A stretch of DNA of 55,759 bases from an uncultured Bacilli bacterium (GTDB taxonomy: Bacteria > Bacillota_I > Bacilli_A > RF39 > UBA660). How positions within the stretch are numbered: position 1 is the stretch's first letter; every line of letters begins with the position of its first letter. The translations under genes and the position numbers were made by a program. Below the pieces are notes generated by a model. That model was not told the origin of the DNA and did not search any database. It was given only the letters and a program-made list of their open reading frames with translations. The stretch is from assembly GCA_944332025.1 (NCBI GenBank), contig CALVJB010000004.1, positions 1 through 55,759 on the forward strand. Direction: 5' to 3'. This document shows, one piece after another, positions 3,158-42,839 of the stretch.

Positions 3158-4420
3158 TTAATCTTTTAAAGTCCCAATTGATACTACATATATTCCATCA
3201 TCTCGTTTATATGAATAATCTGCCCCTGTTAATACCATTAAAAATGATGGTTCTTTATATTTATCTGTATCTACATTTTCTTTAAATTTAGTTAAATTTG
3301 AAACTGCATCAGGAATTTCTCCTGCTCCTAATTTAATTTCAATTGCTCCCCATTTACCATCAGCTGTTTCTAAAATACAATCTACTTCAAAATTATTTTT
3401 ATCTCTATAATAAGATAATCTTGCATCAATAGCATCAGCATATATCTTTAAATCTCTCATACACATATTTTCAAAGATGAAGCCTGTAAAATTTAAATCA
3501 TTTATTAAATCTTCTCTTTTCAAATTTAATGTTGCTATTACAATGGAAGGATCAACTAATTCTAATTTAGGTGAAACTCTTAAAGGAGTTTTAGATCTTA
3601 AATTAAGATTTGTAGCAGGAATATATTCTAATATATATAGTTTTTCTAAAGTATTTAAATAATCATCTAATGTAGGACGAGAAACTTCACTAGCAAATTC
3701 TCTCTTAACACTTTCTAAAATAGTACTTTTACTTACATTTGTTGATATATTCCTAGAGATACTCTTTAAAACTGCCCTCATTTTTGAAGTGTTTCGGCTG
3801 GCACCATCTACATTTTTTATTTCTTCGTTTAATAAACTTTGAACATAATCTTTAGAAATTTTATATTTATTATCTCCATTAATATTTAAAGATTCAGGCC
3901 ACCCACCTCTTATCATAGCATTGATTAAGCCGTCAAAGTCTAGTTCTGATATTCCTGATATATCATTACCATTTATAATATCATTTAAAGATACACTGCC
4001 ATTAGATTCTAAAGATTCATATAATGACATAGGTCTCATAAGTAATTTTGTAATTCTTCCAGTTCCAGTATGCATAACACTATCTTCCTGTGGTCTAGCA
4101 GAACCAGTTAAAATATATTGTCCTTTTAGTCCTGTATGATCAATATCCATTCTTATAGAATCCCAAAGGGCAGGATACATTTGCCATTCAACAAATAGTC
4201 TTGGCTTTTTCCCTTCTAAAAATAATGATGGTTTAGTTTGATTTGTTTTATCATATTGCATCTTTTTATCAGGATCTTGAAATTCAATATAACTTTTGGC
4301 AAATTGTTTTGCTGTAGTTGATTTTCCGCACCATTTACATCCTTCAATTAAAACTGCTCCCATATATTCAAGTTTGTTTTGTAACATTTTATCTATAATT
4401 CTAGGTAAATATTTTTTCAT
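3158..4420 (-). CDS. DUF4143-type AAA ATPase no. 1
   Basis: A 420-residue P-loop ATPase of the DUF4143 group. The Walker A is EGCKWCGKST (26-35), matching the GxKWxGK form of this group. An ATPase core is followed by a winged-helix-like middle and a C-terminal PD-(D/E)XK-like part (FEVD, then AIEIKLG). The Walker B site reads RLFVEWQ where paralogue no. 2 has LIDEW, so the usual aspartate is replaced by valine. The start is ATG at 4420 with GGGAGG nine bases upstream; the GTG at 4429 abuts that site and is rejected. It is a single gene with its own promoter, three 23-bp repeats upstream and a terminator. Cellular function of the family is not established. Confidence 0.85.
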   Translation of the reverse strand: MKKYLPRIIDKMLQNKLEYMGAVLIEGCKWCGKSTTAKQFAKSYIEFQDPDKKMQYDKTNQTKPSLFLEGKKPRLFVEWQMYPALWDSIRMDIDHTGLKGQYILTGSARPQEDSVMHTGTGRITKLLMRPMSLYESLESNGSVSLNDIINGNDISGISELDFDGLINAMIRGGWPESLNINGDNKYKISKDYVQSLLNEEIKNVDGASRNTSKMRAVLKSISRNISTNVSKSTILESVKREFASEVSRPTLDDYLNTLEKLYILEYIPATNLNLRSKTPLRVSPKLELVDPSIVIATLNLKREDLINDLNFTGFIFENMCMRDLKIYADAIDARLSYYRDKNNFEVDCILETADGKWGAIEIKLGAGEIPDAVSNLTKFKENVDTDKYKEPSFLMVLTGADYSYKRDDGIYVVSIGTLKD

Positions 4421-4442: not shown

Positions 4443-4471
4443 ATTACATTATTTTTTTAAGTTTTTGTTAA
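4443..4471 (-). promoter_or_regulatory. Promoter of DUF4143 ATPase no. 1
   Basis: On the minus strand TTAACA (4466-4471), 17-bp spacer, TGTAAT (4443-4448). The three 23-bp repeats end at the -35 box. Confidence 0.55.
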
Positions 4472-4539
4472 GAGTTTATTTTACATTTTGGCTCACTTTC
4501 ATTTTGCATTTTGGCTGTATTTTACTTTATCTTTTGGCT
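4471..4539 (-). repeat. Three 23-bp direct repeats upstream of ATPase no. 1
   Basis: Units 4471-4493, 4494-4516 and 4517-4539. Each ends (plus strand) in TTTTGGCT, at 4486-4493, 4509-4516 and 4532-4539, so the period is exactly 23. The gene-strand consensus is AGCCAAAATGnAAAATnAA. Even spacing by about two helical turns next to the -35 box suggests cooperative binding of a protein, perhaps the ATPase itself. Confidence 0.8.
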
Positions 4540-4938: not shown

Positions 4939-5037
4939 AATAATTTCCTTCCTTTGTTACAATTATATCATTTACTAGACTATAATAATAACTTATTTTC
5001 TTATTAAGAATAAACTATATTGGAAAGGAGAATTGCT

Positions 5038-5520
<483 letters not shown>

Positions 5521-22211: not shown

Positions 22212-23486
22212 CTATGGTTTTAATGCAGTTATAGGAACAATATATATACCAGTCTCTTTATCTTTTACAACTGATGTAAAATTTCCTGTTATTATGCACA
22301 TGAATTTAGGTTTAGTTATCATATTATCATAGAATTTTAGTAAATCTTTCTTAGCAGTTTCAATAGCATTATATCCTAGTTTTATTTCAACCGCTGCATA
22401 ATCGCCATTAGAAAACTCTAAAATTGAATCAACTTCTAGACCTGTTACATTATCTCTAAAATGATATAGATGTCCACCTAAATATTCTATATATATTCTA
22501 AGGTCCCGTTCTACTAGTGATTCAAAGAGAAACCCAAACGTTTTTAAGTCTTTAAGTAATTTATCAGCATTCATATTTAAAGAGGCACAAGCAAGTGAGG
22601 GGTCTGTTAAGTGTCTTTTTGGTGATTTACCTATTCTCTCTTTAGAACGATAGTTTTCACTATAGGCTTCTTGATTTTCTATTATATGCAATCTATCTAA
22701 TACATCTAGGTAGTCTCTTAAAGTTATTCTGCTTTCAATTAATTCTGATTCATTTTCATAGTTATCTATATCTTTTATAAGTGTTTCATTGCTAACAACT
22801 GTAGATTCATTTCTTGCTAATGATTTAAGGAGCATTCTCATCTTATTTTTATCTCTTTTTTTATCATCATTCATATCTTTATCAAGAATAGATTCTATAT
22901 AACTTTTAGGTATTAATCCTACCTTATCTGCATCTACTTTTATATTACTAGGCCAGCCTCCTCTTACTATTAGGTTAGCAAGTTCTTTTAAAGATGGTAT
23001 TTTTACATTAACATTTTTCTGTTTATCTTCTAGCATTGCTGTTAAGGAAGCATCTCCAGTTGAGTCACCTGATTCATAAAGTGACATAGTATACATCTTT
23101 ATCTTACCAATTCTCCCTGCCCCCGAATGAAATACTTCTTTTTTTCTTTCGTCATTCAATTCTGTTGAGCACGTTAATATATATTTACCTTTCTTAGAAT
23201 CTTCATCACATTTTCTTCTAACTTTATCCCATATTTTAGGTACTAAGTGCCATTCATCTATTAATTCAGGTTGTTCTTCATTTAATATCAGTTCTAAATC
23301 AAGTAATGCTCTTTCTTTAGTTTCATCATCATCTAAATAGACAGCACTTTTAGCATGCTTAGAAGATGTCCATGTTTTTCCACACCATTTAGGTCCTTCA
23401 ACAGATAAGGCACCAAAAACTTTTAAATAGTCATCTAAGTTTTTATCAATTAATCGTGGCATATATTCATCGTTATTAAAGTTCAT
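22212..23486 (-). CDS. DUF4143-type AAA ATPase no. 2
   Basis: A 424-residue paralogue of no. 1. Walker A EGPKWCGKTW (30-39), an intact Walker B-like LIDEWH, a winged-helix-like middle, and a PD-(D/E)XK-like end (LEVDSILE, then AAVEIKLG). The start is ATG at 23486 with AGAGGTGA seven bases before; the longer ATG at 23519 has no site. It is a single gene with its own promoter, preceded by three 23-bp repeats in the same place as those of no. 1 but with a different sequence. The two proteins share fold and motifs but are quite diverged, so a recent duplication is unlikely. Function unknown. Confidence 0.87.
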   Translation of the reverse strand: MNFNNDEYMPRLIDKNLDDYLKVFGALSVEGPKWCGKTWTSSKHAKSAVYLDDDETKERALLDLELILNEEQPELIDEWHLVPKIWDKVRRKCDEDSKKGKYILTCSTELNDERKKEVFHSGAGRIGKIKMYTMSLYESGDSTGDASLTAMLEDKQKNVNVKIPSLKELANLIVRGGWPSNIKVDADKVGLIPKSYIESILDKDMNDDKKRDKNKMRMLLKSLARNESTVVSNETLIKDIDNYENESELIESRITLRDYLDVLDRLHIIENQEAYSENYRSKERIGKSPKRHLTDPSLACASLNMNADKLLKDLKTFGFLFESLVERDLRIYIEYLGGHLYHFRDNVTGLEVDSILEFSNGDYAAVEIKLGYNAIETAKKDLLKFYDNMITKPKFMCIITGNFTSVVKDKETGIYIVPITALKP

Positions 23487-23509: not shown

Positions 23510-23538
23510 ATGATAACATATTTTTATGGTTTATTCAA
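23510..23538 (-). promoter_or_regulatory. Promoter of DUF4143 ATPase no. 2
   Basis: Minus strand TTGAAT (23533-23538), 17-bp spacer, TATCAT (23510-23515). The first 23-bp repeat starts two bases from the -35 box. Confidence 0.6.
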
Positions 23539-23540
23539 TA

Positions 23541-23609
23541 TTTGATATACATTTTTTAAGGATTTTGATATGCAAATTTTAAGAGTTTTGATATACAATT
23601 TTTAAAAGT
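23541..23609 (-). repeat. Three 23-bp direct repeats upstream of ATPase no. 2
   Basis: Units 23541-23563, 23564-23586 and 23587-23609, each beginning (plus strand) TTTGATAT. Consensus TTTGATATACAATTTTTAAG. Period exactly 23, as before ATPase no. 1, though the sequence differs. The outermost unit runs into the end of the next gene. Confidence 0.85.
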
Positions 23610-24462
23610 TTGTAATTACATAATATACTCCAAAACCAACTGCAATGATTAAGATTAATGAGAATAAGAACTTTAAGAAACCGATAAACTTTGATGGTTT
23701 AACTTCTTCCTCATCATCACTTTCAAAGTCCTCTTCACTTAAATCAAGGCTCTTAGTATAGAATGATTTATCTATTTCATCTTTTAAAGACATGGTCTTT
23801 TCTTTAACTTTATCTAACTTCTTAGTATCATCTTCTACTTTACTATCTTCTATCTTAGTAGCGATAGGCTTTAACACTTCTTCATTTACATTAGTAGCCA
23901 TTAAATCACTAAGTAAGCTGTTATTGTCATTAGATTCAACTTCTTTTTTATCTATTTCTTCTCTTAACTCTTTAGAAGTAATAGTATGTATTAACTCTTC
24001 AAGTTCCTCTTCATTTTCAATAGGTTTATGTCTTAATTTAGTCTCTTCTTTAAATTTCTCTAAATCTTCTTCACTACTTTCTAAGATGTTATATTTTTCA
24101 TTATGTAGTTTTCTTTTCTTTTCTAGAGAATCTCTTTCTCTTAGTTCTTTCGCTTCTTCTAGAACTTTATTAATATCATAGGTTTTATGTTCATCGTTAT
24201 AAAGAAAATTAAATTCATCTAATTCTTTTCTTTCTTTAGGTTTTTCTATATCTATATCATAATCTTTTATTTGATGATATCCTTCTCTTGTACGATAATT
24301 CTTTTTCGCTGCATTTAACTCAACCGCTTCTATTTTAGATACATCTGTTAGAGTAGTATATTTTTCTAATCTTCCTAAGTCATTATATAAATCTTGATTT
24401 TTTTCTGTTCTACTTCTAACTGTGCTTCTATTTGAATTATCATACCGTTCCATTCTTCCCAT
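23602..24462 (-). CDS. Tail-anchored acidic protein with long charged region
   Basis: A 286-residue protein. About 250 residues are highly charged, helical or disordered and rich in Glu and Lys, followed by one membrane helix (about 262-282, FIGFLKFLFSLILIIAVGFG) and a short end. This predicts a tail-anchored protein with its bulk in the cytoplasm. The start MGRMERYDNSNRSTVRSRTE resembles flexible N-termini of division- or scaffold-type proteins, but no family is recognised. GTAGGTG precedes the ATG. Its stop overlaps the repeats of ATPase no. 2. Confidence 0.65.
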   Translation of the reverse strand: MGRMERYDNSNRSTVRSRTEKNQDLYNDLGRLEKYTTLTDVSKIEAVELNAAKKNYRTREGYHQIKDYDIDIEKPKERKELDEFNFLYNDEHKTYDINKVLEEAKELRERDSLEKKRKLHNEKYNILESSEEDLEKFKEETKLRHKPIENEEELEELIHTITSKELREEIDKKEVESNDNNSLLSDLMATNVNEEVLKPIATKIEDSKVEDDTKKLDKVKEKTMSLKDEIDKSFYTKSLDLSEEDFESDDEEEVKPSKFIGFLKFLFSLILIIAVGFGVYYVITNF

Positions 24463-41544: not shown

Positions 41545-41568
41545 AATTTTTTTACTCAGTTTTATTCT
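41533..41568. terminator. Bidirectional terminator
   Basis: An 11-bp stem (41533-41543 with 41553-41563) between the convergent hit and ATPase genes, T-rich on both sides. Confidence 0.8.
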
Positions 41569-42764
41569 TCTAATAAAAAGTCTATAATATTTATTACTTC
41601 TATACCATCTATTTGTTTATTTTTTACATTATCCATTGTTAATATAACTTTCTTATAATTATCATTGATAGCAAGTAAAGACTTCTTTTCTCTTTCTTCT
41701 ACTTTTTCATCTAAAATACTTCTTGATACTTGATAGTATACTCTTTCGTTTGATTTAATGGCAATGAAATCAATTTCAATATTATCATACTTTCCCACAT
41801 AGACTTCATATCCTCTTCTTAGTAATTCTATATAAACTAAGTTTTCATAACTACTGCCACTATCATATGAAGAAGTACCATCTATTACATTTTTTAGACC
41901 ATTATCAACGAAATAATATTTTCCCTGTGTTTTTAATAATTGTTTTCCTTTTAATTCAAATCTAGGTACTCTATAGATGAAATATGCATTCTCTAACATT
42001 TTCAGATAGGCATCTACTGTTTCATTACTAATAGAACTACCATTTTTTTTCATAAACTCGGCAATAGAATTAGGAGTAGTTAAATTACCTATACATGAAG
42101 CCATATATTTTATTAAATTATCTAAAAATACTATATCTTTTATATTGTTTCTACTAATAACATCTTTCTTTAAAACAACCTCTTTTATATCATTTAAATA
42201 GTTAGTCATCAATTCTTCATTATCATTCATGTTAACTAACATTGGCAAACCACCAAATTTTAAGTATTTATCAAATTTTTCAAACTTTTCCTCATTATTT
42301 TTAAATGGGTATTCTTTGATAAACTCTTTAAAAGAGAATGGATATATCTTTATTGTTAAAACTCTACCTGCAAGTAATGTTGTAAGTTCACTTGATAAAA
42401 GATAAGCATTTGATCCTGTTATATAAATATCTGAATTAATATCTACTAATAAAGAATTAACTGCTTTTTCCCATTTATCTACATTTTGTACTTCATCTAA
42501 TAATATATATTTTTTGTTGTTATTTTTTACTTTCTCTTTTATATAGTTATATAAATCTTTATAATCTTTTATATCGTAAAATGTGGCACTTTCAAAATTC
42601 ATATATATTATATCTTCTTCATTTACTTTCTCAGTTATTAGATAGTCTTTATATTGTAATAATAAAGTACTCTTTCCACTTCTTCTTACTCCTGTAATTA
42701 CTTTTATTAAATTTAAGTCTTTCCCTGCTATTAATTGATTTAAGTATTTTTCTCTTACAAGCAT
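41562..42764 (-). CDS. DUF4143-type AAA ATPase no. 3, distant subgroup
   Basis: A 400-residue ATPase with Walker A GVRRSGKST (25-33), Walker B KYILLDEVQNVDKW, sensor-like ITGSNAYLLSSEL, and a C-terminal nuclease-like fold in which IEIDFIAI is followed by YYQVSRS, so the ExK of PD-(D/E)XK is changed. It is unlike no. 1 and no. 2 in Walker A and overall, and typical of the second, more common group. The start is ATG at 42764, seven bases after AGAGGTG. It has a single-gene promoter with a palindrome over its -35 box and no 23-bp repeats. Function unknown. Confidence 0.88.
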   Translation of the reverse strand: MLVREKYLNQLIAGKDLNLIKVITGVRRSGKSTLLLQYKDYLITEKVNEEDIIYMNFESATFYDIKDYKDLYNYIKEKVKNNNKKYILLDEVQNVDKWEKAVNSLLVDINSDIYITGSNAYLLSSELTTLLAGRVLTIKIYPFSFKEFIKEYPFKNNEEKFEKFDKYLKFGGLPMLVNMNDNEELMTNYLNDIKEVVLKKDVISRNNIKDIVFLDNLIKYMASCIGNLTTPNSIAEFMKKNGSSISNETVDAYLKMLENAYFIYRVPRFELKGKQLLKTQGKYYFVDNGLKNVIDGTSSYDSGSSYENLVYIELLRRGYEVYVGKYDNIEIDFIAIKSNERVYYQVSRSILDEKVEEREKKSLLAINDNYKKVILTMDNVKNKQIDGIEVINIIDFLLEE

Positions 42765-42783: not shown

Positions 42784-42811
42784 ATTATACACTTTTTTCA
42801 GTATTTGTCAA
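42784..42811 (-). promoter_or_regulatory. Promoter of ATPase no. 3
   Basis: Minus strand TTGACA (42806-42811), 16-bp spacer, TATAAT (42784-42789). Confidence 0.8.
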
Positions 42812-42839
42812 AGTTTTACGGCTATAACCGTAAAACTTT
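42810..42839 (-). promoter_or_regulatory. Palindromic operator candidate at the ATPase no. 3 promoter
   Basis: Arms of 12 bp (42810-42821, AAAGTTTTACGG, with 42828-42839) and a 6-base centre. It overlaps the -35 box by two bases. It might also end the CmpB-like transcript from the right, but a protein-binding site is more likely given the place. Confidence 0.6.

Follow-up and report, generated by a model that had tools for sequence, protein, structure and literature searches.

Is the array of short direct repeats upstream of a DUF4143 ATPase gene a DNA element read by the ATPase itself, and is such an arrangement peculiar to one locus or general for the family? The question is raised by ATPase no. 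1, one of three DUF4143 ATPases encoded in the window, i.e., the whole stretch of 55,759 nucleotides analyzed here (Table 1; all positions given without a locus name are those of the window). The original prediction for this region, made without database searches, stated that one sequence recurs at positions 4486, 4509 and 4532 with a period of 23. This held: TTTTGGCT is present exactly at these three starts and nowhere else in the window, and its reverse complement has no copy in the 55,759 bases. Read on the gene strand from 4539 to 4471, the units of the no. 1 array are AGCCAAAAGATAAAGTAAAATAC, AGCCAAAATGCAAAATGAAAGTG and AGCCAAAATGTAAAATAAACTCT, each headed by AGCCAAAA, the gene-strand form of TTTTGGCT. 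The description of the array as three exact 23-bp repeats was overstated, since 14 of the 23 columns are identical in all three units and the exact portion amounts to 8 bp. The statements that the array ends at the -35 box of the ATPase promoter, and that an independent set of repeats precedes ATPase no. 2, were both confirmed; the second array has the same period and another sequence. The third ATPase, no. 3, was not mentioned in that prediction and has a palindrome instead of a direct-repeat array. When searched for with one exact pattern only, the no. 1 array is a single copy in the host genome. A Shine-Dalgarno sequence is located between the -10 box and the start codon of ATPase no. 1; GTG 4429 falls within it and is unlikely to be the start.

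Table 1. Positions of the DUF4143 ATPase genes of the window and of the repeats and promoter boxes upstream of them.
Feature	Position	Strand	Remarks
ATPase no. 1 (DUF4143; AAA_14 + winged helix + PD-(D/E)XK)	3158..4420	-	GPKWCGK subfamily; PADLOC PDC-S01; start taken as ATG 4420
No. 1 array, three 23-bp direct repeats	4471..4539; units 4517-4539, 4494-4516, 4471-4493	-	core AGCCAAAATGTAAAAT
-35 box of ATPase no. 1, TTAACA	4466..4471	-	abuts array; ortholog promoters compared
-10 box of ATPase no. 1, TGTAAT	4443..4448	-	17-bp spacer from -35
ATPase no. 2 (DUF4143)	22212..23486	-	GPKWCGK subfamily; 38-40% identical to no. 1
No. 2 array, three 23-bp direct repeats	23541..23612	-	core TGTATATCAAA; sequence unlike no. 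1 array
-35 box of ATPase no. 2, TTGAAT	23533..23538	-	
-10 box of ATPase no. 2, TATCAT	23510..23515	-	17-bp spacer
ATPase no. 3 (DUF4143)	41562..42764	-	GVRRSGKS subfamily; nuclease catalytic ExK replaced by QVS
Palindrome AAGTTTTACGG-TTATAG-CCGTAAAACTT	42811..42838	-	abuts -35 TTGACA of ATPase no. 3

The host genome (1.59 Mb, fragmented), which is related to Candidatus Onthousia (nearest named match 97%), encodes 18 DUF4143 ATPases, most of them with their own distinct promoter repeat, and the number of these ATPases in 12 genomes of the same genus ranges from 1 to 22. A near set of 130 ATPases from 15 genomes was sorted into three subfamilies, named GPKWCGK, GxRQxGK and GIRRCGKS, and their upstream regions were screened for repeats that are significant (p<=0.01) against dinucleotide shuffles. 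Direct repeats were detected in 77% of the 43 GPKWCGK regions, with a lag of 23 (30 regions) or 24 (3 regions), and in 53% of the GxRQxGK regions, with a lag of 32 (8) or 33 (13). Inverted repeats were detected in 51% of the GIRRCGKS regions. For 178 upstream regions that served as controls at the same loci, the values are 7% (direct) and 9% (inverted), and several of the controls with lag 23 are the same ATPase arrays lying also upstream of a divergent gene, or belong to an HD_3 gene heading an HD-ATPase operon. At two such loci, L103 (2826-4746) and L052, a gene with an HD_3 domain is followed by a DUF4143 ATPase gene, and the 23-bp array precedes the HD gene, not the ATPase gene.

Using the GPKWCGK protein alignment, we collected 80 loci from named genomes, of which 64 are distant (<56% identity). 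These belong to Clostridia, Bacilli, Bacteroidia, Deltaproteobacteria, Kiritimatiellae and archaea (Methanomassiliicoccales and other Euryarchaeota). Upstream direct repeats with p<=0.01 are present in 59 of the 64, and in 58 the lag is exactly 23. Twelve of 230 other genes at the distant loci also passed, with scattered lags; two of the three that did so at lag 23 proved to be further GPKWCGK ATPases. Distant GxRQxGK genes have direct repeats in 23 of 35 cases, with lags of 32 or 33 only, and distant GIRRCGKS genes have inverted repeats in 15 of 40 cases, against 21 of 200 controls (p 8e-5). A minority of the distant GIRRCGKS genes have direct repeats near 40 bp. By this test, a significant palindrome is missing from roughly half of the GIRRCGKS subfamily (51% near and 15 of 40 far have one). 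These data show that the pattern is general, and that the geometry of the repeats tracks the subfamily: a period of 23 for GPKWCGK, 32 or 33 for GxRQxGK, and usually palindromes for GIRRCGKS. The survey of GxKWxGK homologues for upstream repeats of 20-25 bp that the original prediction had suggested is therefore positive, both here and in the second set described below, and the pattern is wider than predicted, being found in all three DUF4143 subfamilies. Two Methanomassiliicoccales genomes of 1.6 Mb each, G080 and G083, encode about 20 GPKWCGK-type ATPases and 10-16 of each other subfamily, and most of their GPKWCGK ATPases carry private arrays.

The converse was addressed by scanning all 2.39 Mb of fetched DNA, a sample that is enriched for ATPase genes by design, so that the result concerns specificity within these regions and not in whole genomes. 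Of 117 strong period-23 segments, 107 are located directly before a DUF4143 ATPase gene. By inspection, the other ten comprise five ATPase arrays with a misread start, one array before a truncated ATPase gene, one HD-ATPase operon, one locus edge and two true orphans at the no. 2 locus. It could be argued that the arrays reflect chance, low sequence complexity or the AT-richness of promoters in general, as the window is 72% A+T and repeats of 8 bp are short. The shuffle and gene controls, the single lag values and the success of the code on held-out proteins (see below) all but exclude this.

As to which protein reads the arrays, 103 of them were brought into register on a shared 23-bp unit, consisting of a 17-bp core (approximately GCCAAAnTCGGAAnTAAAA) and a 6-bp linker. 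Near-identical units (GCCAAA.TCGGAAGT.AAA) accompany like proteins in archaea, Bacteroidota, Deltaproteobacteria and Bacillota, and across 61 dereplicated pairs protein similarity is correlated with repeat similarity (Mantel r 0.40; maximum of 2000 permutations 0.21). Partial Mantel values peak at residues 176-215 and 226-270. Among all 274x18 column pairs, the strongest is residue 249 with repeat position 11 (z 10.4; next pair 5.7; maximum of 500 permutations 8.2). Lysine at 249 goes with G at position 11 (15/15), aspartate with C (10/10), and proline, valine, isoleucine or leucine with A (19/21); in addition, R248 pairs with G at repeat position 9 in 12 of 15 cases. On a tree built without that region, residue 249 and position 11 both change on nine branches (Fisher p 3e-5). 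Both window arrays of this type fit the code, no. 1 having R248/P249 with G9/A11 and no. 2 R248/I249 with G9/A11.

The code was then applied, with the profile fixed, to 56 new GPKWCGK proteins that are less than 85% identical to any training protein; many of these are paralogues in two archaeal genomes and some are from viral contigs. As the PADLOC model PDLC04790 with its strict cut-off gave few further GPKWCGK genes, alignment A2 was used instead. Arrays are present upstream of 50 of the 56 (lag 23 in 47, 24 in 3), and 23 of the 27 bases covered by the code were called correctly (binomial 4e-8 at one third): lysine or arginine with G in 14/14, a hydrophobic residue with A in 4/5, and aspartate or glutamate with C in only 5/8. 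These results demonstrate covariation between protein and DNA that holds for proteins not used to derive it. In the GxRQxGK subfamily no significant code was found (n=32; z 5.6, permutation 95% 6.5). Two composite GPKWCGK arrays, at L010 (G000:C43) and L094 (G004:C4), consist of CACGGAAT or ACCGAATG followed by AGTGTYCA in one unbroken 23-bp register.

A regulator private to this one locus is ruled out by the recurrence of the pattern across domains. It could also be supposed that the reader of the arrays is another DNA-binding protein of the host, such as a general regulator, and that this protein governs the ATPase genes. In support of this, some arrays precede other genes, namely GNAT in G003 and G012 and the Ppx-PurA operon in G009, or stand alone in genomes without the cognate ATPase. 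Against it, every paralogue in one genome has its own repeat sequence, the near-identical units described above accompany like proteins in archaea and three bacterial groups, and residue 249 of the ATPase itself predicts the base, also in held-out proteins. We consider this alternative very unlikely, and return to recognition by the ATPase.

The proteins themselves match the Pfam families AAA_14 and DUF4143 over the cut-offs, and their Walker A and B motifs are conserved in 51 homologues. ATPase no. 1 had no relevant match among PDB sequences and none in NCBIfam. The PADLOC PDC-S01 models match no. 1 (3e-58), no. 2 (4e-58) and no. 3 (1e-153), as well as all tested proteins from the three subfamilies; PDC-S01 is thus the same family as the DUF4143 ATPases described here (AAA_14 + DUF4143 in PADLOC). 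It was found by guilt-by-embedding as a single-gene ATPase fused to PD-(D/E)XK, and is reported to rank fourth in abundance among the defence entries of prokaryotes, at close to 40,000 copies (PMC12988326). It is a phage-defence candidate for which the literature gives no tested mechanism or defence activity (PMC12988326).

The PD-(D/E)XK site is intact in the GPKWCGK subfamily (E345, D347, E361 and K363 are invariant in 51 proteins, including no. 1 and no. 2); the same holds for 45 of the 46 GxRQxGK proteins that have an array. In the GIRRCGKS subfamily, which includes no. 3, the catalytic Glu is replaced by Gln in all 83 aligned proteins, and the catalytic Lys is lost in all 83, with Ala, Ser, Thr, Cys or, once, Val in its place. 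Because both residues are substituted throughout, this sizeable fraction of PDC-S01 probably has no nuclease activity, an inference that rests on sequence alone. In 10 of the 13 genomes of the genus there is a GxRQxGK lineage that lacks both an array and the catalytic residues (EVN..IELA or similar). Among the DUF4143 ATPases of the genus, this lineage (L011, G000:C1:30094, and its orthologues) is conserved most widely, and may conceivably have been domesticated.

An AlphaFold2 model of ATPase no. 1, built from 51 sequences, has a pLDDT of 91 and a pTM of 0.91. In this model, residue 249 stands at the N-terminal end of the helix 248-260, which is likely to be the recognition helix of the winged helix. 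Residues 1-299 resemble most closely the archaeal AAA+ ATPases PABY2304 (2qen; Z 15.2, 262 aligned, rmsd 4.9) and SSO1545 (2fna; Z 14.4, 260 aligned, rmsd 4.7), followed by CED-4 and plant resistosomes (Z 11-12, about 250 aligned). Based on these matches, the first 300 residues appear to resemble a STAND/NLR module, having the same nucleotide-binding, helical and winged-helix layout. However, the two archaeal proteins are only about 17% identical, and our results show no function or operator for either. STAND/NLR proteins differ in carrying a death or TIR effector, whereas here there is a nuclease and the winged helix apparently reads DNA. The top Foldseek match was to Cdc6/Orc1 (2qby, E 1.6e-6), but with a low TM-score (0.24). 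Cdc6/Orc1 is an AAA+ protein whose winged helix reads repeated DNA boxes near its own gene. It has an initiator tail, whereas the ATPases studied here have a nuclease domain and many copies per genome, each with a private box. By analogy, a similar working logic is the most that may be suggested, and not membership of that family.

We then considered where the arrays lie with respect to the promoter, using 59 Bacillota GPKWCGK genes with a confident -35/-10 pair. The boxes were scored with our own weight matrix, which is rough, and near orthologues were counted separately. In 46 of the 59 promoters the last 17-bp core occupies one of four adjacent phases, out of 23, relative to the -35 box, showing that array and promoter are phase-locked. 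The last core ends just before the -35 box in 25 of the 59 (offsets -20/-19) and fills the 17-bp spacer between -35 and -10 in 16 (+1 to +4). Because of this phase the -35 and -10 hexamers fall in the 6-bp linkers (6 + 17 = 23). In some GxRQxGK genes (L138, L139), a unit is located between the -10 box and the start codon. In a lineage of 413-aa proteins (L112, L121, L088, L057), the TTGACTAATTTAAYA unit resembles a -35 box, and its final copy apparently acts as the -35.

We propose that a DUF4143 (PDC-S01) ATPase recognises, in a sequence-specific manner, the short repeat array that lies in and immediately upstream of its own promoter. Recognition would be the task of the winged helix that separates the AAA and PD-(D/E)XK domains, and in the GPKWCGK subfamily the first residues of the putative recognition helix, 248 and 249, would read repeat positions 9 and 11. 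Several protomers would bind side by side on successive units, spaced by 23 bp in the GPKWCGK subfamily, by 32-33 bp in the second subfamily, or on a palindrome in the third. The bound protomers would then regulate their own gene, most likely by repressing it; repression is favoured because the operator units overlap the -35/-10 region, so that bound protein would block RNA polymerase. That the winged helix of each ATPase binds the cognate array, and that the gene is autoregulated, probably by repression, is in our view likely, with binding, cooperativity and repression all being inferred, as there are no binding or expression data. The original prediction that the protein's own middle winged helix binds the repeats is supported to the same extent, by the code linking residue 249 with base 11 and by the modelled recognition helix.

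A possible alternative is that the ATPase binds its own array to activate the promoter, or switches with its nucleotide state. A position just upstream of the -35 box is typical of activators, and some STAND proteins activate transcription. The last core has this position in the 25 promoters mentioned above, and STAND proteins are among the structural relatives; where the array stops there, activation is the strongest competing explanation. It does not agree well with the 16 promoters in which a core fills the spacer, nor with the units between -10 and start codon in several GxRQxGK genes. Moreover, TTGACA, a -35 box that seldom depends on an activator, is present in several of the promoters whose spacer is filled. 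Repression remains our preferred reading.

A bolder reading, which we regard as no more than a possibility, is that the array, beyond being an operator, serves as a perch on self-DNA for a STAND-like ATPase-nuclease. The protein would be kept scarce and inactive while its winged helix holds it on the array, and an invasion that disturbs the bound state would release or assemble it. In related NLR proteins the winged helix is the module that locks the protein in the off state. If the perch reading is true, each genome holds many independently specified copies (18 here, and about 20 of one subfamily in each of the two archaeal genomes).

Repeats that occur without such genes had been named in the original prediction as evidence that would refute it, and this was partly met in relatives. 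The no. 1 array is present at one locus in five genomes: G000 and G008 have an ATPase gene behind it, G003 and G012 a GNAT gene, and G009 a Ppx/GppA-PurA pair; three different cargos are thus found beside the array, and homology breaks at the array edge. The no. 2 array stands alone, with the same precise junction, in G001, G003 and G008, and in a tree of the flanks these are interleaved with the ATPase-bearing G000 and G012. A candidate ATPase remnant in G006 proved to be a truncated GNAT gene.

Such alleles would also be expected if the arrays were primarily sites at which a mobile ATPase cassette lands or is excised, the gene being gained or lost beside an array that is recognised. The clean presence or absence of ATPase no. 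2 beside a kept array, the three cargos at the no. 1 array with homology ending at its edge, and the spread in copy number within the genus (1 to 22 per genome) speak for this view. On the other hand, inspection by eye of present and absent alleles at a few loci revealed sharp array-edge junctions but no terminal repeats or target duplications, nor any array beyond the other end of the gene. Furthermore, the L017 family is cleanly absent with no operator left, the phase lock to the promoter and the subfamily geometry suit regulation, and the same alleles are explicable by ordinary recombination and relic operators. A mobile cassette is therefore unlikely. Relic operators left after recombination are the simplest account of the orphan arrays, although targeted gain or loss beside the array is not excluded. 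Because several relatives retain an array but no ATPase at two loci, an array may be able to outlive its reader or serve some other use. At L163 (3118-5418), a Ppx/GppA-like gene and a divergent adenylosuccinate synthetase gene lie beside an array that elsewhere serves the window ATPase; these two genes might form a nucleotide-based defence pair.

What was known already is the protein family and its label as a candidate defence system, whose anti-phage activity is untested. In the literature we searched, no description was found of an upstream array, DNA recognition, autoregulation or a residue-base code for DUF4143/PDC-S01; preprints, many subscription papers and the primary guilt-by-embedding paper were outside this search, and novelty is unproven. 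The suggestion of an undescribed ATPase-plus-iteron module is thus supported, but for a protein family already listed as defence candidate PDC-S01. Private repeat arrays before DUF4143 ATPases, in the style of autoregulated DNA-binding proteins, represent an apparently undescribed general pattern. Controllers of toxin-antitoxin and restriction-modification systems, and plasmid iterons, are familiar examples in which a protein binds repeats in its own promoter. In contrast to those, reader and effector are combined here in one ATPase-nuclease gene, and the residue-base code spans domains of life. For PDC-S01, a putative DNA target can now be read from the genome copy by copy, and the code could be used to swap specificity. 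The family also obtains a domain map, with the winged helix as the predicted DNA reader and a tail that is an intact or a dead nuclease depending on the subfamily, and annotation gains a cis signature that separates the three subfamilies.

Finally, a collagen-like protein with GPTGPTG repeats is encoded at 5020-5520 of the window, and has many partial internal matches in relatives, which may point to length variation.
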